From contig NZ_LWSK01000013.1 of assembly GCF_001642955.1 (NCBI RefSeq), positions 1 through 64,000 of the forward strand: a DNA stretch of 64,000 nt, read 5' to 3'. Below are positions 3,628 through 62,846 of the stretch, one piece after another. This DNA is from Rubripirellula obstinata (GTDB lineage: Bacteria; Planctomycetota; Planctomycetia; Pirellulales; Pirellulaceae). The position numbers were made by a program, and so were the translations under genes. Under the pieces are notes generated by a model. It did not search any database, was not told the DNA's origin, and saw only the letters and a program-made list of their open reading frames with translations. Position 1 is the first letter of the stretch, and each line of letters opens with the position of its first letter.

Positions 3628-4196
3628 AAGCGGCGCTGGCCCGTTTAGCCGCTTGGGGAACGCCTAGGCTGACGAAAATGTTTGCGTGGAGGGAAACTGG
3701 ACGGCTTTGGGGATTTGTGGCTGACCGGCCTCGGTGTTGATTGCAAAATGAACACTGAAAAATGTAAATTGACCAGCAAATACCGCTTCCCAAGAATTTT
3801 CAGTTTGCAATGTTCATTTTGCAATTTGCAATGTTCGACTGGTTCGCGAAAAACATCACCCACCGCATTTTCATCAGCCCAGGCAACGCCCCGCGTGTCG
3901 TGCGGCCCCACAGTGCGCGGGGTGTGTCCACGGCGGGGGGCCGCCATGCTACTTTTCGCACCGCATGGACGCGCGGGGCGATGCCCACGCGGTTAAACAA
4001 TTTAGAAACCCTTCATAGCGTTGCCCGGCAGGGGCGGCAGCGAGCATTTATCGGATCGATTACCCCTCCGGGGCAAGTCATGTTTTCTGGTCGATTACCG
4101 GTGGCCGTTGGCCACCGGCAAAGTGCTATTACCCCTCCGGGGCAGTTCAATGTTTTTAGCAAGTGCCATTGGGCGATGCGCACGCGGTCAAACAGT
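3628..4196. other. 569-bp gene-free spacer with repeats
   Basis: No credible gene. A degenerate R1 copy occupies about 3875-4027; its centre is interrupted by a G/C-rich hairpin unit (GGGGGGCCGCCATGC near 3935). Further on, the short sequence ATTACCCCTCCGGGGCA occurs twice (near 4058 and 4129), around a GGTGGCC/GGCCACC hairpin near 4100. Near 3740-3830 a second, looser inverted repeat pairs TTGCAAAATGAAC with its complement. Confidence 0.7.
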
Positions 4197-12171: not shown

Positions 12172-12300
12172 ATTGATTTGCAGAGCAAAACCGCTCGGCA
12201 TTATGCAGAGCAAAACCGCTCGGCATTATGCAGAGCAAAACCGCCCTGCATTATGCAGAGCAAAAACCGCCCTGCATTATGCAGAGCAAAAACCGCTCGG
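12172..12300. repeat. 25-bp tandem repeat array (about five copies)
   Basis: The unit ATTATGCAGAGCAAAACCGC plus TCGGC or CCTGC repeats five times with only small changes. It ends about 85 bases before the YTV protein start. GCATTATGC is a self-complementary core of each unit. The array lies between a terminator and the next start, so it may sit in the 5' leader of the YTV mRNA. It has no CRISPR-style spacers. Confidence 0.85.
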
Positions 12301-12386
12301 GGGATGCGGATGTCCGACGCCATGTACAGCACGGCACGCAAAAACGTTTGAAACTCGTTTCTTTTCCCCTATGGAGGATTTCTACT

Positions 12387-14777
12387 GTGAAGTGGATTTC
12401 TCAATTGTTCTACGCGTCGGCATTCCTGTTGACGACAGCCAGCATCAGTGCGGCTGGAAACTGTGGCTGCGACCCTTGCAGCAGCGGATCTGGTGCTTGC
12501 ACCGGCGGTGCCGGCGGCATGTCGTCCAGCTACGGCATGGTCGATGGTGCCGGTTCGGGTGCTTCGCTTGGTGCCGGTGGCGCTTGCGGACCATCAGTCA
12601 GCTATGAAACGCGAACGGTAATGCGTTCGCAAATGGTCACCGAAACTCGCGAAGTTCCTGTGACGACGTACCAACGTCAAACTCAAACACGCATGCGCAG
12701 CGTTACTCGCCGCGTCGCACGCGTCGAAACACGCCAGCAAACCTACACGGTCAACGTTCCGCAAACGCAAACGCGTACCGAGAACTACACCGTTCAAGTT
12801 GCTGTTCCTTACACCGAGGAAGTGCCGTACACGGTTCAGGTTCCTGTGACAACGCAAGTTCAGCAGTCCTACCAAGTATCGGTTCCGTACACCGAGCAAG
12901 TTGCGCAAACGTACACGGTTCAAGTTCCACAAACCTCGCAAGTCGAACAGACTTACACGGTCAGTGTTCCTTACACCGAAACGCAAACGCAAAACTACAT
13001 GGTCAACGTTCCTTACACCGAGCAAGTCGAACAGGCTTACACGGTTCAGGTTCCTGTTCAACAAACTCGCGAAGAAACCTACACCGTTAGCGTTCCTTAC
13101 ACCGAAAATGTCGAACAGACTTACACCGTCAACGTGCCCGTCACTTCGACGCGAACGCAGACTTATCAAGTCAGCGTTCCCTACACCGAAATGGTGACGC
13201 AGAACTACAGCGTTCAGGTTCCTTACACAGAAACGAAAACGCAAACTTACAGCGTTAACGTTCCTTACACCGAAACGGTACAGCAACCTTACTCGGTCAC
13301 GGTTCCTTACACCGAAGCAGTTCAGCAGAACTACACGGTGCAAGTTCCTTACACCGAGCAAGTCGCTCAAAACTACACCGTTCGAGTACCAGTTCAGGAA
13401 ACCCGCACTGCTTACCGAACGGTCAGCAAGCGAGTTCCGGTAACTACCATGCGTACGGTTAGCCGTGACATGGGCAGTTACCAAAGCGTTCCTGTCACCG
13501 TCGGTGGCGGATCGTCCTACAGCAGCAACTACGGCGGTGGCGGTTACGCCAGCGGCGGACGTCGCAGCGGTGTTCTGGGTGGTCTGCTTGGCGGATTGCT
13601 CGGTTGCAAAGGCGGAAACGGATGCGGCGGCGGTTCATCCTGCGGCAGCAGTTGTGGAAGCAGTGGCGGTTGCGAATCCAGTTGCGGATGTGCACCTGAA
13701 CCAGCTTGCCCGACCGTTTGTTACAAAAAGGTTTGGGTTCCAAACGTTGTTTGCGAACAAGTTCCTTGCACCACGTATCAAACTCAGTGCAGCCAAGAAC
13801 CGTACACCTACACGGTCACCAAGTACACGTGCCAAACGCAAACGCGAATGGTTCCTGTCACCCGGACTCGCACCGAAACTCGTTCGCGTACGGTCAACGT
13901 GACCAAGTACACGACCGAGCAACGCATGCGTGCGGTTCAGGTTCAACGTTGTCGAACCGAGCAACGCTCGCGCGACTACACCGTCACCAAGTACCGCACT
14001 GAAACTCGTGCTCGTCAAGTTCCCGTTCGTCGTTGCCGCACTGAAACTCGCACCCGCGAAATTCCAGTCACCACGATGACGACTCAAACGCGAACTCGCA
14101 CTGTGCCTGTCACTCGCACCCGAACTGAAACTCGTACTCGATCGGTTCCTTACACCGTCATGACGACTCAGCAACGGACTCGAATGGTCACGGTTCAGAA
14201 GACACGTCAAGAACAACGGACTCGTAGTTACCAAGTGCAAAAGACTCGCACTGAAACTCGCACCCGTACTGTTCCTGTCACAACGATGACGACTCAAACT
14301 CGCACCCGCATGGTGCCTGTCACACGTACTCGTATGGAAACTCGCACCCGCATGGTTCCTCAAACGACCATGACGACCGAGCAACGTACTCGTACCGTCA
14401 ATCGCACTCGAATGGAATCGCAAACGCGAAGCCGTCAAGTGAACTTCACCGTGAACGTACCCGAGCAGCGTACCCGATCTTACAACGTGACTGTCTATGA
14501 CAACGTCACCGAGCAAGTGCCGGAAAACTACACCGTGTGCGTTCCCGTTCAATCGACTCGCACCGTTCAAGTGCAAGTGTGCAAGCAAGTGCCATCGACC
14601 GTTCAGGTCCCGGTATACAGCTACAACACTGCACCTGCGATGTCGTCTCCTGTAATTTCTTCACCAGTAATGTCGTCACCGGGCATCAGCAGCGGCACCA
14701 TCATTGATGGCGGCAGCAGCACGATGGGCGGAAGCTCGATGCAAACTGGTGCTGGTTGCACTAGCTGTGGTGGTTAA
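12387..14777 (+). CDS. YTV-repeat cell-surface protein
   Basis: 796 residues. The GTG start is supported by GGAGG at 12373-12377 and by the signal peptide that begins there (VKWISQLFYASAFLLTTASI). After a Cys/Gly-rich segment, residues about 80-355 are some twenty YTV units (YTVQVPYTEQVAQ-type). A Gly/Cys-rich linker of many CG and SCGSS steps spans about 370-435. A second array of basic TRTETRTRTVPVT-type units follows, then a Ser/Met-rich tail. YTV repeats (Pfam YTV) are known from Rhodopirellula, where such proteins are reported as cell-wall-associated. The Cys-rich segments could cross-link subunits. A terminator follows, so it is monocistronic. Confidence 0.92.
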   Translation: MKWISQLFYASAFLLTTASISAAGNCGCDPCSSGSGACTGGAGGMSSSYGMVDGAGSGASLGAGGACGPSVSYETRTVMRSQMVTETREVPVTTYQRQTQTRMRSVTRRVARVETRQQTYTVNVPQTQTRTENYTVQVAVPYTEEVPYTVQVPVTTQVQQSYQVSVPYTEQVAQTYTVQVPQTSQVEQTYTVSVPYTETQTQNYMVNVPYTEQVEQAYTVQVPVQQTREETYTVSVPYTENVEQTYTVNVPVTSTRTQTYQVSVPYTEMVTQNYSVQVPYTETKTQTYSVNVPYTETVQQPYSVTVPYTEAVQQNYTVQVPYTEQVAQNYTVRVPVQETRTAYRTVSKRVPVTTMRTVSRDMGSYQSVPVTVGGGSSYSSNYGGGGYASGGRRSGVLGGLLGGLLGCKGGNGCGGGSSCGSSCGSSGGCESSCGCAPEPACPTVCYKKVWVPNVVCEQVPCTTYQTQCSQEPYTYTVTKYTCQTQTRMVPVTRTRTETRSRTVNVTKYTTEQRMRAVQVQRCRTEQRSRDYTVTKYRTETRARQVPVRRCRTETRTREIPVTTMTTQTRTRTVPVTRTRTETRTRSVPYTVMTTQQRTRMVTVQKTRQEQRTRSYQVQKTRTETRTRTVPVTTMTTQTRTRMVPVTRTRMETRTRMVPQTTMTTEQRTRTVNRTRMESQTRSRQVNFTVNVPEQRTRSYNVTVYDNVTEQVPENYTVCVPVQSTRTVQVQVCKQVPSTVQVPVYSYNTAPAMSSPVISSPVMSSPGISSGTIIDGGSSTMGGSSMQTGAGCTSCGG

Positions 14778-15021: not shown

Positions 15022-15165
15022 AACGCTGTGAAGCTTTTCTAAATTGTTTAACCGCGTGGGCATCGCCCCGCGCGTTTCGTTCAGCGTGGACGCGCGGGGC
15101 GATGCCCACGCGGCTAAACAAAACAATGGGCTTTTACTGGATAAAATCTCTTCACGGCGTTGCCT
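15022..15165. repeat. R1 nested palindrome copy
   Basis: Outer left arm GTAACGCTGTGAAG and TCTAAATTGTTTAAC, inner arms CGCGTGGGCATCGCCCCGCG / CGCGGGGCGATGCCCACGCG, and a diverged right end with CTTCACGGCGTTGCC. The span 14863-15021 before it shows no gene. Confidence 0.85.
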
Positions 15166-15230
15166 TTGCCGGGTGCCATGGCCCTCTAAAACGGCACCAC
15201 CTCAACTTGTTCGCTCGGTAACCATCAGTT

Positions 15231-15426
15231 GCGGTCCCGCCGAGGCAAGCTCGGACGAAAACAGTCCCTCGCGAAATCAGCTTCCCCTGCGATTCCTCCC
15301 CGCTTCCGCCGGGCTCGCCCCGGACGGAGCGCACAACTGGCGGCTACCAGCCAACGCCAAAAACAATCATAAATTCTGAATTTTCAGGCCTCCGCTCCGG
15401 GCTGTCCCGGCGGAGCCAACGACTCA
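15231..15426. repeat. REP unit, left copy (3' side of the transposase gene)
   Basis: This unit of about 195 bases is repeated in the same orientation at 16328-16535. Shared blocks include GAAATCAGCTTCCC (ATATCAGCTTCCC on the right), GGGCTCGCCCCGG, GGAGCGCACAA, TGGCGGCTAC and TTTTCAGGCCTCCGCTCCGG, ending in AACGACTCA. The unit contains G/C-rich palindromes (CCGGGCTnnCCCGGCGGAG). Its end overlaps the last codon and stop of the transposase gene. Confidence 0.85.
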
Positions 15427-16212
15427 CGACTCAAGCTTCCGCACCACCCCGCGATCATACCCACCAAACGTCCCGACATAATAGCTGAACTTCAGGATCG
15501 GTTTCATCTCGTACACATGCGCGATATTGTTCATCAGCGATAACGCCACCGACTGTGGAGAATCCGTCACATCAGCACCGAGCAGCACATGCACATGGTT
15601 GCTCAACAATCCAATGCGAGACAATCGCCACGGCTTCTTCTCGCAAGCACGAACAATCACGCGACGCACTCGCTGCAATTGAGAATCGCGCACCTCGTGC
15701 CAGCTTTCTGCATTCTCCACGACGACTTGCAGCGAGTTTAGGTATTTTCCGTAAGTGCCTATCGAGGTTTTCGAGAGATCAACGGATTCGTCATGGAACT
15801 GCGCGGCTTCGATTCGTGCCTGAACCGCGTCGTCGGCAATCGGATGCTTCGCGGTCTGCCCAGCGACGTACTGATCCAGGACATTTGAGTTTGCTTCGCC
15901 GACGCTTTGGATGTGGTAATTGCGACGGAACGCCTTCGGGTTTTGGTCGCGAATTAGATACTGCAAGCGACCTTTAACACTGCGAACAATATCTGAAGGC
16001 GATGATTCAGGACGGGTACTGGCGAGGAATTGAATTGTGTTTTCAGACCGAGCATTGGCTGAAAGAATTCGCACACCATCGGCTTCCGTGGCCGCTTGCA
16101 GTTCTTCGAGCCAAGCAGATTGATCTGATAGGTCCGATTTCCCGAACAGCGCGAGTGACCAATTGAGTTGGTACGCTGCGGTGGTTTTGTCGGCTGTGTA
16201 AATTGGTTCCAT
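15424..16212 (-). CDS. REP-associated tyrosine transposase (RAYT), two-half Y1 protein
   Basis: 262 residues. RAYTs are single-strand DNA nucleases of the IS200/Y1 HUH family that act on REP palindromes. Residues about 10-140 align by eye to a Y1 domain: AYQLNWSLALF, PSDIVRSVKGRLQYL, RRNYHIQSVGEAN and the tyrosine helix LDQYVAGQ. Where HUH should stand it reads ENTIQFLAS. Residues about 150-262 are a second half: YLNSLQVVVENAESW, an intact HUH in LLSNHVHVLLG, ALSLMNNIAHV and YYVGTFGGYDRG. It ends just before a tyrosine helix would occur. The two halves may therefore complement each other. REP units flank the gene on both sides. Confidence 0.87.
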   Translation of the reverse strand: MEPIYTADKTTAAYQLNWSLALFGKSDLSDQSAWLEELQAATEADGVRILSANARSENTIQFLASTRPESSPSDIVRSVKGRLQYLIRDQNPKAFRRNYHIQSVGEANSNVLDQYVAGQTAKHPIADDAVQARIEAAQFHDESVDLSKTSIGTYGKYLNSLQVVVENAESWHEVRDSQLQRVRRVIVRACEKKPWRLSRIGLLSNHVHVLLGADVTDSPQSVALSLMNNIAHVYEMKPILKFSYYVGTFGGYDRGVVRKLES

Positions 16213-16228
16213 GCGCGGGTGCCAAGCC

Positions 16229-16265
16229 GAGTCGTTGATCCCGCCGGGGCAAGCCCGGAGCGGAG
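16229..16265. repeat. inverted partial REP at the 5' end of the transposase gene
   Basis: GAGTCGTTGATCCCGCCGGG and the following AAGCCCGGAGCGGAG are the inverted counterpart of 15390-15425. The transposase gene is thus bounded by inverted REP ends, like an element of about 880 bases (15390-16265). Confidence 0.8.
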
Positions 16266-16327
16266 ATCGCGAAAGGGAATATAGGACGGTTCGGTTTTAG
16301 TTTAGCGTTAGTAGCTGCCAGTTGTTT

Positions 16328-16535
16328 GCTCCGCCGGGACAAGCCCGGACGGAAGCAATCACTCACGATATCAGCTTCCCTTGGATCGGCACCGCGCTTC
16401 CTCCTCGCTTCCGTCGGGCTCGCCCCGGTCGGAGCGCACAAGTGGCGGCTACAACGCAGACTCAAGAATTACCCATCTACATTCCTGATTTTCAGGCCTC
16501 CGCTCCGGGCTCGCCCCGGCGGAGCAAACGACTCA
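16328..16535. repeat. REP unit, right copy (5' side of the transposase gene)
   Basis: Direct repeat of 15231-15426 with moderate divergence. It begins GCTCCGCCGGGACAAGCCCG and ends GGCGGAGCAAACGACTCA. The remaining bases to 16607 hold nothing recognisable. Confidence 0.85.
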
Positions 16536-19771: not shown

Positions 19772-21301
19772 ATGGAAATTGAGAGACTGGTCGCTTTTCT
19801 GGAATCTTCACCCACGGTTCGTTTGCTGCGTGCCGATCAGGCGGCGTTTGTGGTGTGCTTTTTACGCAAAACGCTGAAGCTGACGAGCGAGGATTCGGCG
19901 ATCTCGTTGTCTCATGAGGAACTTCAGCACCAACTGACGACTTTTCAAGAACAACTTCGAGACGATGGCTACGACGCGTTCTCGGGAACCCAGGATCGCT
20001 ATCTTCGGGAATGGTCCGATGCGGGTTGGCTGCGGCGGTTCTTGCCGGCTGAATCGTCGAGCCCGCATTATCAATTGACTCGTTACGCCGAAGACGCGAT
20101 CGGATTCCTTGAAAATGCAGTCTCGCGTGAACACCGAATGGTCGGTACGGAGAGTCGATTGCGGTTGGTCATCGATACGCTGACTGACCTGGTGCAGGGA
20201 GCGTCGGCGGATCGCGATTTGCGACTGCAAACATTGGTCGCACAACGTGACGACTTGAACCGCCAAATCGACGCAATCCGCGGCGGTGCGGAAATCGAAA
20301 CCTATCATCCGGCTCAGGTGCGCGAGCGGTTTCATACGGCGGTCGATCTGCTGAAGACGCTGCAAGGCGATTTCCGTGCCGTCGAAGATCGCTTTGAAGA
20401 GATCGCTCGCGACGTCACTCGCGGCGCGCTGAATGTTGACCGCGGTCGCGGCGACATTTTGGCCGGGGCACTCGACGCGGAGGACTTGGTCAAACAACAA
20501 GACGAAGGCGTTAGCTTTGATGCCTTCGTCGCGTTCCTGTTTTCGCCCCAAGCCCAAGCAAAACTTCGTGAGACGATCGGCGAAGTGACGCGATTGGAAG
20601 CCATTGCCGATCAACGCGGTGCGATTGAACATGTCCGGGCGATGGTGCCGTCGCTATTGGCCGAAGCCGAGAACGTGCTGCGTCAGACGGGACGGTTGTC
20701 ACAAACGCTCCGTCGGTTGTTGGACAGTCAATCGACCAGCCATCGCAAGCGTACCGCCGAATTGCTGCAAGGAATTCGGACGTTGGCGTCGAAGATGAAA
20801 CAATCAACTCAGCAAACCGGCGAACCCGTGCCCAGTGAAATGGGTTTGCGAGTCGACACAACGCTGGGCGTCAATTCACCACTGGCCCGACCCTTTTGGA
20901 CGCCGGCCCAAGTTTTCGACATCGCCGTCGAAACCAACGAGATCGATTGGGAAACCGCCAAACGGCAAGCTCGCAAGTTGTCCGGGCTCAAACGCTTGCA
21001 ATGGGATCGTATGCGAGCATTGGTTCATCAGATCACCGATCTGCAAACCAACATCACGTTGTCACAGTTGTTGGAACATCGCCCGCCCAAGGTTGGCGTG
21101 ATTGAATTGGTCGGATGGATGCAGATCGCTCACGAAGATGGTCACAAAATCGATGCCGAGGCGATTGAGCAAGTGACGGTGACGACGGACGATCCGTTAA
21201 CGGGCGAGTCGAGCACCGTTCGCGTACGCATCCCGTTGGTCACCTTTTCAAAAACCCAACAAACCGAAAACAAAACGGTTCGCAAAGGAAAACCGAGATG
21301 A
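19772..21301 (+). CDS. jetA: Wadjet anti-plasmid protein JetA (DUF3375, kleisin subunit)
   Basis: 509 residues. The N-terminus (IERLVAFLESSPTVRLLRAD, then FVVCFLRKTLK) and the whole length match DUF3375, the JetA/MksF-like kleisin of type I Wadjet systems. Kleisins bridge the SMC motor JetC and the KITE protein JetB. Long helical stretches lie in the middle (residues about 120-340). The stop overlaps the JetB start by 4 bases (ATGA). Wadjet is known to recognise and cleave closed circular plasmid DNA. The start at 19772 has a weak GAAG upstream. Confidence 0.92.
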   Translation: MEIERLVAFLESSPTVRLLRADQAAFVVCFLRKTLKLTSEDSAISLSHEELQHQLTTFQEQLRDDGYDAFSGTQDRYLREWSDAGWLRRFLPAESSSPHYQLTRYAEDAIGFLENAVSREHRMVGTESRLRLVIDTLTDLVQGASADRDLRLQTLVAQRDDLNRQIDAIRGGAEIETYHPAQVRERFHTAVDLLKTLQGDFRAVEDRFEEIARDVTRGALNVDRGRGDILAGALDAEDLVKQQDEGVSFDAFVAFLFSPQAQAKLRETIGEVTRLEAIADQRGAIEHVRAMVPSLLAEAENVLRQTGRLSQTLRRLLDSQSTSHRKRTAELLQGIRTLASKMKQSTQQTGEPVPSEMGLRVDTTLGVNSPLARPFWTPAQVFDIAVETNEIDWETAKRQARKLSGLKRLQWDRMRALVHQITDLQTNITLSQLLEHRPPKVGVIELVGWMQIAHEDGHKIDAEAIEQVTVTTDDPLTGESSTVRVRIPLVTFSKTQQTENKTVRKGKPR

Positions 21302-21966
21302 ATGAATCGCCTTCGGATCCGAACTCATTCACCAGCGACGCTTTGCCCGACACGCTGCCGCCTCCGGTGCCGTGGGCACCCGCGGCGGTTCGGTTGCTGC
21401 AAGGCATTGTCTACCACGACGACGCCGGCGACACGTGGGAACGAATTCTATCGGGCGTCACGCCGCTGACGGATTACTTCGCGCGCATCGGGTTGCAATT
21501 GATCGTCAATGAAGAAGACGGGATGGCCTATTTGCGTCAGATTGATCCAGAGACATTGCCGCCTGAATATCCACCCATCCCCAAATTGTTTCGTAGCATG
21601 CGATTGACGTTTGAAGCGTCACTTTTGTGTGTCTTGCTGCGCGAAGAATTGCGACGGTTTGAGGAAGAGATTCATCGCGACGGTCGTTGTGTGGTAACGC
21701 AGTCGGCGCTATTGGAAGTTTGGCAATCGCTCGTTCCTGAGGACACTGACGACGTGCGTGCGAATCGAAATTTAGGCGGGCAGCTTCGCAAGTTGGAAGA
21801 ACTGAAATTCGTTCGGCAATTCGACAAGGAGCCACCAAGCTGGGAGGTGCGGCGAATTTTGAAGGCGAGGTTGCCGCTTCAAGAATTGGAACGATTGAGA
21901 AGTGATTTGGAGGCGGAATTGAAACGACGCGGGGAGAAAGCAGGTGACGCAGAGGATGCCTTGTGA
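21298..21966 (+). CDS. jetB: Wadjet protein JetB (DUF4194, KITE subunit)
   Basis: 222 residues. DUF4194 features are visible: an N-terminal helical part, the winged-helix-like LIVNEEDGMAYLRQI, then LPPEYPPIPKLF, LLCVLLREELRRFEE and a C-terminal LGGQLRKLEELKFVRQF, then WEVRRILKARLPLQELER. It is the small accessory subunit of the JetABC condensin-like complex. Overlap with jetA and a 68-base gap to jetC keep it in one operon. Confidence 0.9.
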   Translation: MNESPSDPNSFTSDALPDTLPPPVPWAPAAVRLLQGIVYHDDAGDTWERILSGVTPLTDYFARIGLQLIVNEEDGMAYLRQIDPETLPPEYPPIPKLFRSMRLTFEASLLCVLLREELRRFEEEIHRDGRCVVTQSALLEVWQSLVPEDTDDVRANRNLGGQLRKLEELKFVRQFDKEPPSWEVRRILKARLPLQELERLRSDLEAELKRRGEKAGDAEDAL

Positions 21967-22034
21967 AAGTTCTATCTCCCGCGTTCCCCTCTGCGTCTCT
22001 CGCGACTCCGCGTCAATTTATTAGTGAATGATCG

Positions 22035-25000
22035 ATGACCAAATTGCCCAAACAAAATCGACCGCTCGAATTGTTCGCCGACGATGACCTTGTCTTGAAG
22101 CAAACAACGCCAGGTTTTCGTCTCGCAACGTTCGAAGTTTTCAACTGGGGAACCTTCGATGGCCAGGTTCATTCGATTTCGCCGCAGGGCACCTCTTGTT
22201 TGTTGGTCGGGGAAAACGGGGCCGGCAAGTCGACATTGGTCGATGCGATGCTGACATTATTGGTTCGTCCAGGCGTGCGAAATTACAACGTCGCGGCCGG
22301 AGCGGGGAAGAAAGAACGCGACGAGCGAACCTACATTCGCGGCGCTTACGACCGGACCGCCGGCAGCGACGAAAAGCCCAAGATCCAGTACCTGCGCGAA
22401 GGCAATGGGTTTTACACCGCGCTGTTGGCAACCTTCGCCAGCGGTCGATCCGATCGGACGTTCACGATTTGCCAAGTCATGTATTTGACGTCCAGCGGCG
22501 ACAAGAAAATCTACTACGCCTTCGATAAGAAGCCTCGCAGTATTGCTGGCGACCTGGGCGACTTGACGTCCGGCGGTGACATCAAAAGCACGCTCACCGA
22601 TCGCGGCTTTGACGTCACCGAGAGTTTCAAAACGTATCACGGATGGATCAAGCGATTGGTCAAGTTCCGGTCCAAGGCTATGGACATTTTCAACCAGACC
22701 GTCGCGGTCAAGGACGTTCAACGGCTCGATCAATTCATCCGCGATCACATGCTGGAGAAAAAATCGTGGAATGATAAGGTCAGCAAACTGCTCGAGCATT
22801 TCGCTCAACTGAGCGAAGCCCACCGGGCGCTCGTGCAAGTGCGTCAGCAATCTGAATTGTTGGTTCCCATCTTGAAGGCGGGTGAGCGGTTTCGCAAAAC
22901 CAACGTCAAACTGCAATCCGCCCGCGACGAATTGGCTGCGGCAGGACTCTTCTTTGACGTCGCGACCGGCGACTTGCTGCGGCCGATGTGTCAGCAATGG
23001 AAGTTGCGGATCGAGCATTTGAATGAACAAATCACGCTGCTGGATCGATCGTTGAAATCCAAACGTGGCGAAGCGGCATCGGTGGAGCACGAGATCGGGC
23101 ACAGCGGCGGCGCGAGACTGCAACAGCTTCCGTTTTTGATCGAACAACAAGAACAGCATGCGGCGTCCAAGAAAGAGAAACGGCTCGCCTTTGAGGCGAA
23201 GATCCAGCAAGTTGGCATCCGTCAAACGATCAACAGCCCCGAGCAGCTTGAAAAGGTTCACTGCCAGATCGCGGAGCAACAACAACGCATCGCGGCAGAA
23301 AAAACAGCGGCCGTCAGTCAGCTTGAAACACTGAACTATGAAATCGGGACCTTGCGTCAAGAACTCGCCGCTGACGAAAACGAACTCGAATCGCTTCGTC
23401 AACGCAAAGGAAATCTGCCCGATGCGTTCATCGAAATTCGCGGTGATTTGTGTACCGCATTCAAACTGTCGCCCAGCGACCTGCCGTTCGCGGCCGAGTT
23501 GATTTCGGTCGATCCGGATCACGGACGTTGGGAAGCCTCGATTGAACAGGTGCTTCATTCGTTTGCACGCACGTTGTTGGTCCCTGACGATCTGTATGCA
23601 AAGGTTTCCGGCTACGTCGATTCCCAACGTTTGACCGATTCGCGTGGTCGTGGTTTGCGACTGACCTACGATCGAGTCGGCGCTCGCACGTCCGCGACGT
23701 CGCAACGATGGACCGAATTGAGTTTGCCGGACATGTTGCTTTACCGTGACGACCATCCGCTGGTTCCGTACGTTCGCGGCGAGATTCTGTCGCGGTTTGA
23801 CCACTTGGCGTGTGATTCAATCGCCGACTTTCAAATGGCCGGTCGCCGCGCGATGACCATTCACCGACACGTCAAACAGAACCAACGTCAGCATGCCAAG
23901 GACGACCGTGCCAGCCTGGGCGACCGCAAACACTTTGTTCTGGGTTGGGACAATCGTGCCAAACGCGAAGCGTTGGAACATTCGATTCGCGAACAAAAAA
24001 TAGCGATTCAAAAGAAGACGACGTCGGCCGAATCATTACGCCGCAGCAACGACCAAGCGACGCGGCTCATCAGTCTTTTGGATGAACTTTCCGTGGTGAC
24101 GCAGTTCGATGCGATCGATGATCACCGGCATGATTTCGAAGCGTCGCAGTTGAGACTCGAAAAGCAGAAGTTGGAAGCGTCCAACGATCAAGTTCGACAG
24201 CTCAAGGCAAAGCTGGCCGCGCTCAATGCCGAGGTCGAGGGTCTGGAGTCCGACCGTGATCTGTTGGTGGGCGAACGGTCGAACTTGCAAACCCGAATCG
24301 GTGATGGCGAAACGGTTCTGAAACGTGTCGACGCCAAAGTGCAGCAAGCTCGGGCGGAGGATCGTTTCGCAGCGGCCGAGAAATTCTTTGACGGGATCAC
24401 CACCCAGATCGGTGAACGAAAGCTGACGCTGGACAATCTCGGGATCCTGCCGCGGGATGTTTCGGATGAATTGGCGGCGAAAGTCAATGAACTGGAAGAG
24501 CGCATCGATCCGCTTCGGGATAACTTGACCAAAGCCATGAGTCGGTTGTTGAATCGGTTTCCGGTTTTTGAATCGGAACTGGATCCGACGCCTCAGGCTT
24601 TGCCCAGTTTCGAACAACTTGCCGAGCGAATCAACAAAGACGATTTACCGCGTCATGAACGCCGCTTCAAACAACGACTCAAAGAAAAGGTGTTGCAAGA
24701 AATCGGTTTGCTTCACGGTTCGCTCGAAGACGAACGCGAGGAAATTCGCAGCAAGGTCGAAACGCTCAACGAAGCCCTGCGTCAACTCGATTGGAATCCC
24801 GGCACGTTCATGCGGTTGGAACCGAGCGACACGTCGGACGCGGAAATTCGTGACTTCCGGCGTGAGCTTGCCGGTTGCCTGGAAGGCACCCTGGGCGGCA
24901 CCGACGAGGCGAACGAAGTGACGTTCAAGAAGATTGAAAAGCTGGTCGATCGGCTTCGCGATGACGCGAACCTTCGTTGGCGAGAAAAGGTGATCGATGT

Positions 25001-25430
25001 CCGCAATTGGTTCAAATTTGCGGCCCGCGAATACGACGCGGCATCCGGTGAGGCGGGCAGCTATTACGACGGCGGCACGGGTCAATCCGGTGGCGAGAAA
25101 GGCAAGTTGGCGTTCTTGGTTTTGGTGGCGGCGATCGCGTATCAATACGATTTGCAACCAGACGATCCGGCCAGCGAGCGGTTTCAATTCGTCATGGTGG
25201 ATGAAATGTTTTCGCGCAGCGATGACACGCGGGCCAAGTACGCGCTGAATCTGTTTGAACAATTTGGATTGCAACTAGCGATCGTCGCACCGCTGGATGC
25301 GAAGGCGCGAATCACCGAAAGCTATGTCGGCACCTACGGTCACATCATCAAAGACCCGGACACGCACCGCAGCCAGTTGATCAGTTTGACAACCGAGCAG
25401 TACCGAGCCGCCGCGGGCGATGAATCATGA
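22035..25430 (+). CDS. jetC: Wadjet SMC-like ATPase JetC
   Basis: 1131 residues, an SMC/MukB-type ATPase and DNA-loop-extruding motor. Walker A is GENGAGKST (residues 59-67). Long coiled-coil arms follow on both sides of a central hinge-like region (about 480-640). The C-terminal head carries the ABC signature GQSGGEKGKL (about 1016) and Walker B FVMVDEMFSRSDD (about 1053). Nothing essential is missing. The ATG is 68 bases after jetB, and the stop overlaps jetD by 4 bases. Confidence 0.93.
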   Translation: MTKLPKQNRPLELFADDDLVLKQTTPGFRLATFEVFNWGTFDGQVHSISPQGTSCLLVGENGAGKSTLVDAMLTLLVRPGVRNYNVAAGAGKKERDERTYIRGAYDRTAGSDEKPKIQYLREGNGFYTALLATFASGRSDRTFTICQVMYLTSSGDKKIYYAFDKKPRSIAGDLGDLTSGGDIKSTLTDRGFDVTESFKTYHGWIKRLVKFRSKAMDIFNQTVAVKDVQRLDQFIRDHMLEKKSWNDKVSKLLEHFAQLSEAHRALVQVRQQSELLVPILKAGERFRKTNVKLQSARDELAAAGLFFDVATGDLLRPMCQQWKLRIEHLNEQITLLDRSLKSKRGEAASVEHEIGHSGGARLQQLPFLIEQQEQHAASKKEKRLAFEAKIQQVGIRQTINSPEQLEKVHCQIAEQQQRIAAEKTAAVSQLETLNYEIGTLRQELAADENELESLRQRKGNLPDAFIEIRGDLCTAFKLSPSDLPFAAELISVDPDHGRWEASIEQVLHSFARTLLVPDDLYAKVSGYVDSQRLTDSRGRGLRLTYDRVGARTSATSQRWTELSLPDMLLYRDDHPLVPYVRGEILSRFDHLACDSIADFQMAGRRAMTIHRHVKQNQRQHAKDDRASLGDRKHFVLGWDNRAKREALEHSIREQKIAIQKKTTSAESLRRSNDQATRLISLLDELSVVTQFDAIDDHRHDFEASQLRLEKQKLEASNDQVRQLKAKLAALNAEVEGLESDRDLLVGERSNLQTRIGDGETVLKRVDAKVQQARAEDRFAAAEKFFDGITTQIGERKLTLDNLGILPRDVSDELAAKVNELEERIDPLRDNLTKAMSRLLNRFPVFESELDPTPQALPSFEQLAERINKDDLPRHERRFKQRLKEKVLQEIGLLHGSLEDEREEIRSKVETLNEALRQLDWNPGTFMRLEPSDTSDAEIRDFRRELAGCLEGTLGGTDEANEVTFKKIEKLVDRLRDDANLRWREKVIDVRNWFKFAAREYDAASGEAGSYYDGGTGQSGGEKGKLAFLVLVAAIAYQYDLQPDDPASERFQFVMVDEMFSRSDDTRAKYALNLFEQFGLQLAIVAPLDAKARITESYVGTYGHIIKDPDTHRSQLISLTTEQYRAAAGDES

Positions 25431-26584
25431 TCGACCCGCAATCGATCCGCGACAAAGCGAAACGTTTGTTTGGCAAGGCGATCAAGGCGTGGTTGGCGGG
25501 CGAGATGGAAGTTTTTTTCCCCCACCGAATTCCCGCCAACCTGACACCGTCGAAGGATCAATCCAAAGCGATCGCGGAAGTCGAGTCGCTGCGTGATCAC
25601 AGCCAACAAGCAACCGGCGCTGGATACCGCATCGAATGGGAATCGCGTCGCAGTCGAACGCACGGGAGGAATGATTTTCCCCACGCGATCTTTGTCGACA
25701 CGATGGAGGATCTGGCTTGTTTGAGCAACCGCATGGACGACTGGAACAGGCTTCAATCGTCGGTTGATCTTCTGCGAAGCCGCCAGCCGAATCTTGAAAG
25801 CTGGCTGCGAAAGGGAACGAATTGGAAGCTGCTGCTGGAGTTGTCGGATGGGCTTTCGGATTTGCTGTGCATCTTGGACTACATGGTTGAACATCCGCGA
25901 CCAGACTGTTTTGCCCGCGAACTTCCGGTCGCCGTATCGACCAAACTGATCGAACAGCATCGTCGTCGACTTGCGAGCTGGTTGGATCTTCTGCTGCCAC
26001 CCCAAGCGATTGATTTTCGGTTTGGGTATGACCAATTCGAGCCACGGTATGGGCTTCGCTACGCGCGGCCGCATTATCTGTTGCGAGTTCTTGATCAGGA
26101 TTTGCAACACGAGCTCGGTCTTCCGTTTGACGAGCTTTCGTTACCTGCGGAATCGATCGCCAAGCTACCGGCGAGAGATCAACGAGTCATCATTGTCGAA
26201 AATAAGGTGAGCCTGCTGTCGCTGCCACCGATGCGTCGAACGCTCGCTCTGGGCGGCCTCGGCAATGGCGTGACCCAGCTTTCCGGTATCTCGTGGCTGC
26301 GACAGTGCGATGTGATTTACTGGGGCGATCTCGATGCCGATGGCTTTCGAATCCTCGATCGACTACGAGCTGTTCTTCCCCATGTTGAAAGTCGATTGAT
26401 GGAGCAAGCGGTCGTGGACGAATTTCGTCATCTGGCAACAGACGGCAACGGCGACCAGCCACACGAAACTGAAAATCTCTGTGAAAGCGAACGTCAGTGC
26501 TATCACTTCTTGTGCCAAAGAAACCTGCGAATCGAGCAAGAACACTTGCCGAATGTGTTGATCCACAATGCTTTGTCACAATGA
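25427..26584 (+). CDS. jetD: Wadjet nuclease JetD (DUF3322-DUF2220, Toprim)
   Basis: 385 residues. The N-terminal half is DUF3322-like (DNA-binding and arm region) and the C-terminal half is DUF2220, a Toprim-type fold. The catalytic Glu is in RVIIVENKVS (about 257) and the DxD in YWGDLDADGFRIL (about 300-306), so the metal-binding residues are intact. JetD makes the plasmid cut in type I Wadjet. It is the last gene; 279 bases of apparently non-coding DNA follow. Confidence 0.93.
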   Translation: MIDPQSIRDKAKRLFGKAIKAWLAGEMEVFFPHRIPANLTPSKDQSKAIAEVESLRDHSQQATGAGYRIEWESRRSRTHGRNDFPHAIFVDTMEDLACLSNRMDDWNRLQSSVDLLRSRQPNLESWLRKGTNWKLLLELSDGLSDLLCILDYMVEHPRPDCFARELPVAVSTKLIEQHRRRLASWLDLLLPPQAIDFRFGYDQFEPRYGLRYARPHYLLRVLDQDLQHELGLPFDELSLPAESIAKLPARDQRVIIVENKVSLLSLPPMRRTLALGGLGNGVTQLSGISWLRQCDVIYWGDLDADGFRILDRLRAVLPHVESRLMEQAVVDEFRHLATDGNGDQPHETENLCESERQCYHFLCQRNLRIEQEHLPNVLIHNALSQ

Positions 26585-31487: not shown

Positions 31488-32086
31488 GAGTTGTTGGCCG
31501 CCATCACGCTGTTGCTGTTAACACGGTTTTGCACTGGTCGATCCAGAAGAGAACGTCTTGCGTGTCGTGACGTTCGAGTCCTGACGTATGCCAAAGAAAA
31601 AGCAACCGTCATGCCAATTGGGATATGTTTTTTTGAAGACGCTTCGTCGCAATTCCATTTTTGTTCCTGATTGTCGTTCCCCTATCGCAAAGGGATTTCA
31701 GCCATTCGCCGGGGGTCGAGCGCAGCGAACACCGCCGGAACAGAAATCATCACGGAACACCGACCCCGAAGGTGTGGTCGTCATCGTTGCCCCCAGGTGC
31801 GCTACGCGACCTGGGGCTAATCGAGATATCCCTTCGGGATGAAGACAATCGCAAGCCGAAACCCCAAAGATATAGCGGCCCAGGTCGACCCGGCCAGTAC
31901 AAAGTAAATCCTTGGTCGAAAGCTTCGCGTATCGGCGAAAGCGTGGTGCTGTTCACCGAAAAGGAGGCGTTGAATCCAAAGCTGAATCGCAAACCAATTG
32001 TCGCCTCCGGACGATTCGTAGATAATTTGCTCCGCGATCTCATCGGGAATGAAACCAACTTCGACAACTGACCGGCGATAACACTC
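31488..32086. other. 599-bp spacer with an R2 repeat
   Basis: 31676-31845 is an R2 repeat. The rest has a weak open frame from 31661 to 32071 (plus strand) that begins inside the repeat and has no recognisable domain, and an equally weak 92-codon frame on the minus strand. I do not support either. No promoter is evident for the large kinase gene that follows. Confidence 0.55.
31676..31845 (+). repeat. R2 dispersed repeat, copy 1
   Basis: It contains AAGGGATTTCAGCCATTCGC, CGAACACCGCCGGAAC, CACCGACCCCGAAGGTG, GTGGTCGTCATCGTTG and an inner hairpin CCCCAGGT / ACCTGGGG, ending ATCCCTTCGGGATG. The same blocks occur in inverted order at 57318-57505. Confidence 0.85.
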
Positions 32087-57569: not shown

Positions 57570-57722
57570 CACCCCAACGCCGTGAAGAGTTTTGATCCCG
57601 TAAAAAACGTGTTAGTTCGTTTAGCCGCGTTGGGCATCGCCCCGCGCGTTCGGGCCAGCACAACGCGCGGGGCGATGCCCACGCGGTTAAACGATTTAGA
57701 AACTCTTCACGGCGTTGGGTGC
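57570..57722. repeat. R1 nested palindrome, complete copy
   Basis: Left outer arm CAACGCCGTGAAGAG, inner arms CGTTGGGCATCGCCCCGCGCG / CGCGCGGGGCGATGCCCACG, and right outer arm GGTTAAACGATTTAGAAACT through CTTCACGGCGTTGGG. The left arm is interrupted by a 20-base variant that also appears at 1580 and 62800. Confidence 0.85.
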
Positions 57723-62286: not shown

Positions 62287-62846
62287 GCCCAACGCCGTGA
62301 AGGGTTTCCAAATTGTTTAACCGCTTGGGCATCGCCTGGGCCGCTGTGGGGCTAGCACGACGCGCGGGGTGATGCCTGGGCCGCTAAAAGTTTGGGGTTG
62401 ACGCGGACATTGGAGGTCCAAGTTTTATTCCGTCCCTACTGAAGTACGCCAACGGCGTTGAACACCATAGCCCAGGGTTAAGGTTTTGCGAGCGTAGCGA
62501 AGCAAACCGCAACCCTGGGTTGATGACGTTAACGAATTAGTCTCCCCCGTCCCCGATTTTGGCGGCGAAGCCGTCAAAATCGGGGACGGGGGAGGAGGGC
62601 TGCTGGTGCTCCGTGACCCAGGGTTGCAGCGACCCAGGGTTGCAGTGACCCAGGGTTGCAGCGTCAAATCGCCAAGGCGATTGACGACTTTAACCCTGGG
62701 CTATGTTGTTTAACGCCGTTGGCGTAGAGAAAGAAAGTAGCACAAGCAAGAATGACTTTAACCCCAAACTTTTAGCGGCCCAGGCGATGCCAACGCGGCT
62801 AAACGAACTCATCCGTGTTTTCCGGGACCAAAACTCTTCACGGCGT
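62287..62846. repeat. nested palindrome built around an expanded R1 element
   Basis: The left half (62287-62400) and right half (62752-62846) are split R1 arms, joined by AAAAGTTTGGGGTT and its complement AACCCCAAACTTTT. Between them, GCCAACGGCGTTGAACACCA (62451-62470) pairs with about 62690-62722, an internal IR CCCGTCCCCGATTTTGGCGG / CCGTCAAAATCGGGGACGGG spans 62547-62591, and GACCCAGGGTTGCAG repeats three times (62626-62664). The rest of 62119-62975 shows no gene. Confidence 0.8.

Follow-up and report, generated by a model that had tools for sequence, protein, structure and literature searches.

The locus

The window, by which we mean the whole 64,000-nucleotide stretch of Rubripirellula obstinata DNA analysed here, carries on its minus strand a gene for a two-half Y1 (HUH) transposase, set between two clusters of REP-like hairpins. 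In the list below, ORF counts refer to the 38-row alignment described further on, and G021 is a second genome of the same genus.

15424–16212, minus strand: two-half Y1 (HUH) transposase gene, 262 aa, ATG start, stop included
15793–16212, minus strand: N-half, residues 1–140; Y1 fold, HUH position (residues 58 and 61) degenerate, Tyr helix intact
15868–15870, minus strand: Tyr115, aligned with Tyr132 of ISDra2 TnpA; 38/38 ORFs
15856–15858, minus strand: Gln119, at Tyr+4, the metal-ligand position as in Q131 of IS608 TnpA; 38/38 ORFs
15751–15792, minus strand: linker joining the halves, residues 141–154
15427–15750, minus strand: C-half, residues 155–262; Y1 fold with HUH, stopping at the start of its own Tyr helix
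15589–15597, minus strand: HUH motif H206-V-H208; 38/38 and 37/38 ORFs
15205–15425, no strand assigned: downstream REP-like hairpin cluster, cores near 15240 (degenerate), 15310 and 15397; common to the G021 copy
15302–15347, minus strand: REP-like hairpin, GTAG at 15344–15347, 15 nt from the main stem
16215–16535, no strand assigned: four REP-like hairpins clustered upstream, cores at 16244, 16334, 16415 and 16506, orientation − − + +
16311–16356, plus strand: REP-like hairpin, GTAG at 16311–16314, 13 nt from the stem
16407–16452, minus strand: REP-like hairpin, GTAG at 16449–16452, 15 nt from the main stem
16498–16534, minus strand: outermost upstream hairpin, without GTAG
307–355, 1521–1569, 3881–3986, 15058–15107 and 57632–57680: palindromes of the TTTAACCGCGTGGGCATCGCCCCGCGCG family

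On its left, the hairpin cluster is bordered by a gene for an 849-aa repeat protein, in which YTV stretches (PF07639) number eight (12228–14777, plus strand). A plus-strand operon at 19772–26584 matched JetA, JetB, JetC and JetD (PADLOC E-values of 9.3e-93, 6.6e-44, 0 and 8.2e-126), and we take it to be a Wadjet-type defence system. The palindromes closing the list form a second REP-like family, TTTAACCGCGTGGGCATCGCCCCGCGCG with its inverted partner, of which the window holds five; the core of this family, with up to one mismatch allowed, was absent from 16 stretches around the other Y1 genes of G021 and of the window's own genome (G000).

Two Y1 halves in one chain

The whole 262-residue protein matched the Pfam profile Y1_Tnp (PF01797) over two stretches, with an E-value of 5.3e-12 and 46.4 bits (cut-off 23). 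Profiled separately, residues 1–133 matched positions 32–121, the Tyr end of the profile (1.1e-6), and residues 135–262 matched positions 22–79, the HUH end (4.5e-4; 20.8 bits, just below the cut-off of 23). A profile–profile alignment of the N-half with the C-half (hhalign) was collinear, with E-values of 2.4e-6 (global) and 3.9e-6 (local) and probabilities of 77% and 87%. It placed ENTIQF at the HUH position of the N-half and the last residues of the chain at the Tyr position of the C-half. By these comparisons, the two halves are mutually homologous. The HUH motif and the catalytic Tyr are both present in the whole chain and are found together in neither half of the window protein. The initial annotation had read the ORF as two Y1-like halves, the first keeping LDQYVAGQ with ENTIQF at its HUH position, and the second keeping NHVHVLL and ending before a Tyr helix; the motifs, the Y1_Tnp matches and the hhalign positions all agree with that reading.

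Relatives within Planctomycetota

Searches for the same fusion across planctomycetes yielded a set of 38 different full-length ORFs from 33 genomes, the window protein included. The profile searches, the scope of which was Planctomycetota, gave matches in 17 of the 392 genomes searched in the phylum and in 50 of the 397 searched in the class, single-domain Y1 genes and fragments included; full-length two-half ORFs, by our own count, occurred in 4 and 29 of these, respectively. Sequence was obtained for 30 loci and 20 further stretches of the class-wide matches, a part of all the places matched. The set of 38 also takes in G021 and three genomes of another class. G626, which belongs to the same class as the window, has a two-half ORF identical to the one in a Schlesneria record (L002). 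G000 holds a single copy of the two-half gene, and within the genus the gene was found in 2 of 22 genomes, the second being G021, whose copy is 93% identical. A single-query scan of genome contigs, limited by its short patterns, returned one relative only. Plasmids and phages searched for homologues gave no match, and a scan of viral contigs gave one weak match, to a 137-aa ORF.

For the 38-row alignment, we kept ORFs whose profile match started at or before position 15 and ended at or after position 240, counting identical ORFs once. Broken or partial copies (L059, L060, L067, L068, L070, L071, L072, L074, L075, L076, L006 and two L045 fragments), the single-domain Y1 proteins and the partial gene matches from the second-genus search described below lie outside it. 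Two unusual rows, L050 (its HUH motif reads HLP) and L057 (its C-end is a BlaI-like domain), were retained in the counts, and L057 was excluded from the tree and from the fold of residues 106–262. Y1_Tnp matched all 38 ORFs, with E-values up to 0.01.

Complementary loss of the two motifs

Y115, Q119, K80, G105 and H206 are kept in all 38 ORFs and H208 in 37, which is more than chance would give at the mean column identity of 35%. At the HUH position of the N-half, His occurs at residue 58 in 4 of the 38 ORFs and at residue 61 in one, residue 61 is Gln in 29, and HxH is absent from all 38. The Tyr position of the C-half (residue 260) bears Tyr in two ORFs, L012 and L073, and lacks it in the remaining 36. 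In those two, the Pfam match across the C-half reaches profile position 120, the Gln-ligand position at C-half Tyr+4 is Trp, and the N-half keeps its Tyr and Gln, without HUH. In the tree, they stand apart from the remaining 35 rows with a support of 100/100 (root at the midpoint only). This suggests an order of loss in which the HUH motif of the N-half went first, then the metal ligand of the C-half, then its Tyr helix.

The complementary loss is kept among relatives down to 17% identity. Comparison of the window gene with three relatives gave dN/dS values of 0.145, 0.111 and 0.069, indicating purifying selection. If the sites were assembled in trans, one of the two composite sites is expected to decay as a unit, which fits the observed pattern. 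Under a cis arrangement, both halves of the window protein would be dead, contrary to the dN/dS values.

Structure prediction and solved TnpA chains

The AF2 model of the full chain, with a mean pLDDT of 93.9 and a pTM of 0.91, has the Y1 order of strands and helices twice; its least sure part is residues 251–262 (pLDDT 62–70). Residues 106–262 folded alone gave a pTM of 0.84 and a pLDDT of 82–84 for the Tyr helix, compatible with a composite site though no proof of one. In Foldseek searches with the model, target TM-scores reached 0.80 for IS608 TnpA, 0.82 for ISDra2 TnpA and 0.50 for TnpAREP (4er8); the search against viral models returned nothing useful.

Searching PDB sequences with the 38-row profile returned 2ec2 (5.7e-15), 2f4f (1.1e-14) and 2xm3 (ISDra2; 1.7e-9). 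In 2ec2, 2xm3 and 2xma, the C-half (from 151 or 156 to 224–231) covers the HUH part of the single solved chain, and the N-half (64–69 to 124–128) then covers its Tyr part, with weak i-E-values of 0.00055, 0.092 and 0.39 for the N-half parts. Here Y115 falls on the Tyr that PDB titles of ISDra2 TnpA name Y132. Matches to one half only were found for 2f4f, 2xo6, 2fyx and 4er8 (C-half) and for 2a6m and 2vhg (N-half). In IS608 TnpA, as described in the accessible text of PMC5934647, the site is built in trans, one chain supplying Tyr127 and Q131 and its partner H64/H66. Q131, on the Tyr helix, is a metal ligand according to the available parts of PMC5934647 and PMC6006769. The initial annotation had proposed that the complementary half-sites make one composite site, and the proposal is supported: both halves are Y1 domains, the loss persists over large divergence, and no test made here contradicted it.

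Hairpins beside the gene across the family

REP-like hairpins accompany the gene in most of the family. A strict hairpin finder located 155 hairpins at 300 bp or less from the 38 genes; dinucleotide shuffles gave 30.25, with a maximum of 39 among 20. Hairpins flank the gene on both sides at 31 of the 38 loci and on at least one side at 36. The same finder reported none beside the window gene or the G021 copy, whose hairpins are bulged, so the count of spaced TAGs given below rests on the other 36 loci.

GTAG often stands at a constant distance on the strand that bears the CAAG-type loop. With either strand counted, 110 of the 161 hairpins lying up to 320 bp from the gene had a TAG that started 21–16 nt before the stem, and these represent 33 of the 36 loci; the commonest starts were 19 or 18 nt before the stem, that is, with 16 or 15 nt between. 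Shuffled flanks gave 23.1 such hairpins (maximum of 37 among 200), and the other six intervals gave 4–20. The spacing was found in 2 of 59 hairpins located 800–1400 bp away and in 7 of 56 hairpins beside 24 single-domain Y1 ORFs. Three hairpins of the window bear GTAG, at 13–15 nt from the stem.

The accessible text of PMC6006769 places the GTAG or GTGG tetranucleotide of canonical REPs 0–2 nt from the foot of the hairpin. The guide bases of IS608 include +16 to +18, as given in the available part of PMC5934647. By our own reading of that numbering, the cleaved TTAC precedes the hairpin by about 18 nt, so the spaced GTAG may be a cut site rather than a guide. More broadly, we infer that GTAG is either the cut site or its guide.

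A second genus hints at the same link between gene and hairpin. One hairpin type occurs 62 times in G638 and 0–6 times in each of the other 14 genomes, and gene matches, fragments included, were found in 8 of the 15 genomes. Four of these eight (G731, G626, G557 and G575) have a gene match without the G638 hairpin type, and G684 has two copies of the hairpin type without a gene match. The gene flanks in G731 (L041) and G575 (L040) bear other hairpin sequences.

Dispersal in the genus of the window

The hairpins of the window are imperfect, and single ones fold only modestly better than their shuffles (z from −0.42 to −3.36). Searches for their core CGGGCTYGYCCCGG gave 53 hits in G000, 19 in G021 and no more than one in any of the 20 remaining genus genomes; a reversed control occurred 0 times in G000 and once in G021. 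The abundance in both G000 and G021 need not represent two independent events, since these genomes may be closely related. The two genomes contain 10 and 6 other Y1 matches, respectively, and the core, with up to one mismatch, was absent from the 16 stretches around them.

Comparison of the whole window with a 7.5-kb stretch around the G021 gene revealed only 15205–16533 in common, the gene with its hairpins, implying a gene–hairpin unit placed in different surroundings in the two genomes. The right-hand neighbour of the gene was found in 3 of the 22 genus genomes, the window's own included, and was absent from G021.

For the dispersed cores, we inspected 16 stretches in G000, a part of its 53 core hits, and five stretches in G021. 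The terminal repeat of an element of about 480 bp was borne by 14 of the 16 G000 stretches, with both ends in seven, and by none of the five from G021, the gene's own stretch included. The hairpin copies of G000 may thus have spread with this terminal-inverted-repeat (TIR) element, and their number need not be the work of the two-half enzyme.

The elements in question (L083–L089 in G000) are bounded by the terminal inverted repeats CCGCTAAAnnTTTGGG and contain up to four REP-like hairpins. Related TIR-element ends occur in the window as a pair at 62381 and 62763 (62381–62763) and as a single end at 31863.

Comparison with known classes

The TnpA proteins of IS200/IS605 elements (IS608, ISDra2 and the Sulfolobus chains 2ec2 and 2f4f) share with the two-half family the Y1 fold, the HUH motif and a Tyr helix of the form Y---Q. 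This spacing, Y115 to Q119, is that of class 1 IS200/IS605 TnpA and is present in 38/38 ORFs. They probably share the trans logic of the site as well, by analogy with IS608 (PMC5934647, accessible text). The distance between the left cleavage site and the hairpin in IS608, as derived from its base numbering there, resembles the distance between GTAG and hairpin here. The differences lie in architecture. IS200/IS605 TnpA is a symmetric homodimer of subunits of about 150 aa with two catalytic sites, whereas the present protein is one 262-aa chain of two fused halves with what would be a single site. An IS200/IS605 element has one left and one right hairpin end, both cleaved, in contrast to the several hairpins found here on each side, and two-half genes, unlike those of IS200/IS605 TnpA, sit beside REP-like hairpin clusters. 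The window protein scored 47.1 bits with the NCBIfam equivalog transpos_IS200, below its cut-off of 55.

RAYT proteins (TnpAREP, class 2 of Quentin 2018) resemble the family in their surroundings: REP/BIME-like hairpin clusters around the gene with copies elsewhere, a GTAG tag and a low gene copy number. They differ in the Tyr motif, which is Y--NP (PMC6006769, accessible text) and not the Y---Q of all 38 ORFs, and in the position of GTAG, which lies 0–2 nt from the foot according to the same text and about 15–16 nt from it here. TnpAREP of E. coli (4ER8) is described in the available part of PMC6006769 as an apparent monomer with one HuH-Y core, compared with two domains here. The initial annotation had called the protein a RAYT; the hairpin surroundings agree with that name, but the Tyr motif and the spaced GTAG do not. 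An ordinary RAYT with a cis site was rejected, given the Y---Q motif, the lack of a half of the window protein that combines HUH with Tyr, and a score of 15.3 bits with NCBIfam REP_Tyr_transpos, below the cut-off of 80.

TnpAY1 class 3 (Quentin 2018) is found mainly in planctomycetes, and its hairpins can reach high copy number; its members were called possible intermediates from IS to REP (PMC6006769, accessible text). Its Tyr motif has a spacing of five (Y----Q), compared with Y---Q in 38/38 ORFs here, its profile is 155 aa long and its median protein 178 aa (PMC6006769, available part), compared with 262 aa. A CnGA tetranucleotide is expected at the foot of its hairpins; the tag found here is of GTAG type and lies away from the foot. 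Membership in this class was rejected, as the Tyr spacing does not fit. The two-half family is IS200-like in motif and probably in the logic of its site; it is REP-associated in habit and, by the comparisons made here, a full member of neither class.

Neither a two-half Y1 transposase nor a REP with a distant GTAG was described in the open-access literature searched (most subscription papers fall outside it), including the accessible portions of PMC6006769, PMC3733652, PMC5934647 and PMC8266576. The functional set of the 2018 survey, as set out in the available text of PMC6006769, was restricted to proteins combining HuH and Tyr in a single core, so two-half proteins would be set aside. For hairpins, the survey demanded GTAG or GTGG at 0–2 nt (PMC6006769, same text), so hairpins with a spaced GTAG would be hardly visible to it.

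A proposed single-chain pseudo-dimer and its alternatives

We propose, with a probability of about 80%, that the protein is a natural single-chain pseudo-dimer of the IS200 type, with one composite site, acting on the flanking REP-like hairpins near the spaced (G)TAG. Two copies of an IS200-type Y1 domain would have fused. One trans site, formed by the HUH motif of the N-half and the Tyr of the C-half, would have been lost, and the other, which pairs Tyr115 and Gln119 from the N-half with His206 and His208 from the C-half, would have been kept. The pseudo-dimer most likely binds the single-stranded REP-like hairpins beside its own gene, and its single composite site (Tyr115 with the metal site H206/H208/Q119) most likely cuts and joins single-stranded DNA at or near (G)TAG, about 15–16 nt from the foot. 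In this way, the enzyme would move or maintain the hairpins and its own hairpin-flanked gene. The meeting of the two half-sites within one chain, the catalytic activity of the protein and the mobility of hairpins and gene are each presumed here from the evidence above.

The working site could instead form between two chains, Tyr115 of one molecule joining the HUH motif of another in a swapped homodimer. The known TnpA sites do form between chains (PMC5934647, accessible text), and sequence conservation fits assembly within and between chains alike. The one-chain AF2 model, however, is confident of the halves and of their arrangement (pTM 0.91), which would be an odd coincidence unless the halves pack like a TnpA dimer, and we regard a swapped homodimer as improbable. 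It is still harder to see the gene as a decaying transposase, its inactive halves left by tandem insertions or a frameshift. Neither half alone holds a complete site, and broken copies exist in other genomes, but dN/dS values of 0.07–0.15, the presence of Y115, Q119 and H206 in every ORF over large divergence, and 38 different full-length ORFs in 33 genomes leave very little room for decay; with key residues invariant and such ratios, a pseudogene was rejected. An ordinary RAYT with Tyr and HUH in the same domain would account for the REP-like hairpins on both sides at 31/38 loci, yet it is scarcely credible in view of the split motifs of the window protein, the constant Y---Q in place of Y--NP, and the low score with REP_Tyr_transpos.

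A different kind of alternative concerns function. The protein may have been domesticated as a hairpin-binding protein with another task, for example the control of hairpin-bearing transcripts or DNA, nicking without real mobility. The single copy in G000, the occurrence in 2/22 genus genomes and the chance that another element spread the G000 hairpins speak for such a role. Against it stand the restriction of the sequence common to window and G021 to the gene and its flanking hairpins, the patchy occurrence of the gene, the presence in five genomes of two full-length copies that diverge from each other, and relics of deletion and frameshift such as mobile genes leave. We consider domestication unlikely.

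For the pseudo-dimer, we further suggest, tentatively and at somewhat less than even odds, that fusion produced an asymmetric one-site enzyme in which one half holds the hairpin and the site acts on a tetranucleotide about 15–16 nt away. Single hairpin half-sites could then be cut, copied or moved singly, and the family would be a living intermediate between IS200 and REP systems, with its own class of spaced-GTAG REPs. If this is true, the path from IS200 to REP led from two ends, a homodimer and a trans site to single hairpins, a monomer and a cis site, and the spaced-GTAG class has been overlooked by searches demanding GTAG at the foot.

Trans-site assembly in Y1 transposases is known from the crystal structures of a few homodimers. 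Complementary loss after fusion would amount to evolution's own test of this arrangement, with the outcome expected under a trans model and impossible under a cis one. The two-half enzyme could also offer a tractable one-site, one-chain cutter of single-stranded DNA, and the family suggests that there is a class of REP-like hairpins whose GTAG tag stands apart from the stem.

Rearranged copies and single-domain relatives

In L057 (724–1713, minus strand), the C-end has been exchanged in frame for a penicillinase-repressor-type domain (Penicillinase_R, 1.5e-17). The frameshifted two-half copies L067, L071, L072 and L070 are broken in or beside the linker (residues about 138–156), with an additional break near residue 31 in L070 and the break of L071 at a 10-bp tandem duplication. 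The position of these four breaks may reflect chance, a hot spot, or a tolerated splitting into two chains. In L076 (1471–1845), residues 2–51 are joined straight to 207–261 in one frame, resembling the deletion derivatives of mobile elements. L078 and L079, from G460 and G451, are IS200-like genes with a single domain. Their genomes contain six and five matches of similar score (one copy read in each), and these genes may be active insertion sequences within the same bacterial order.
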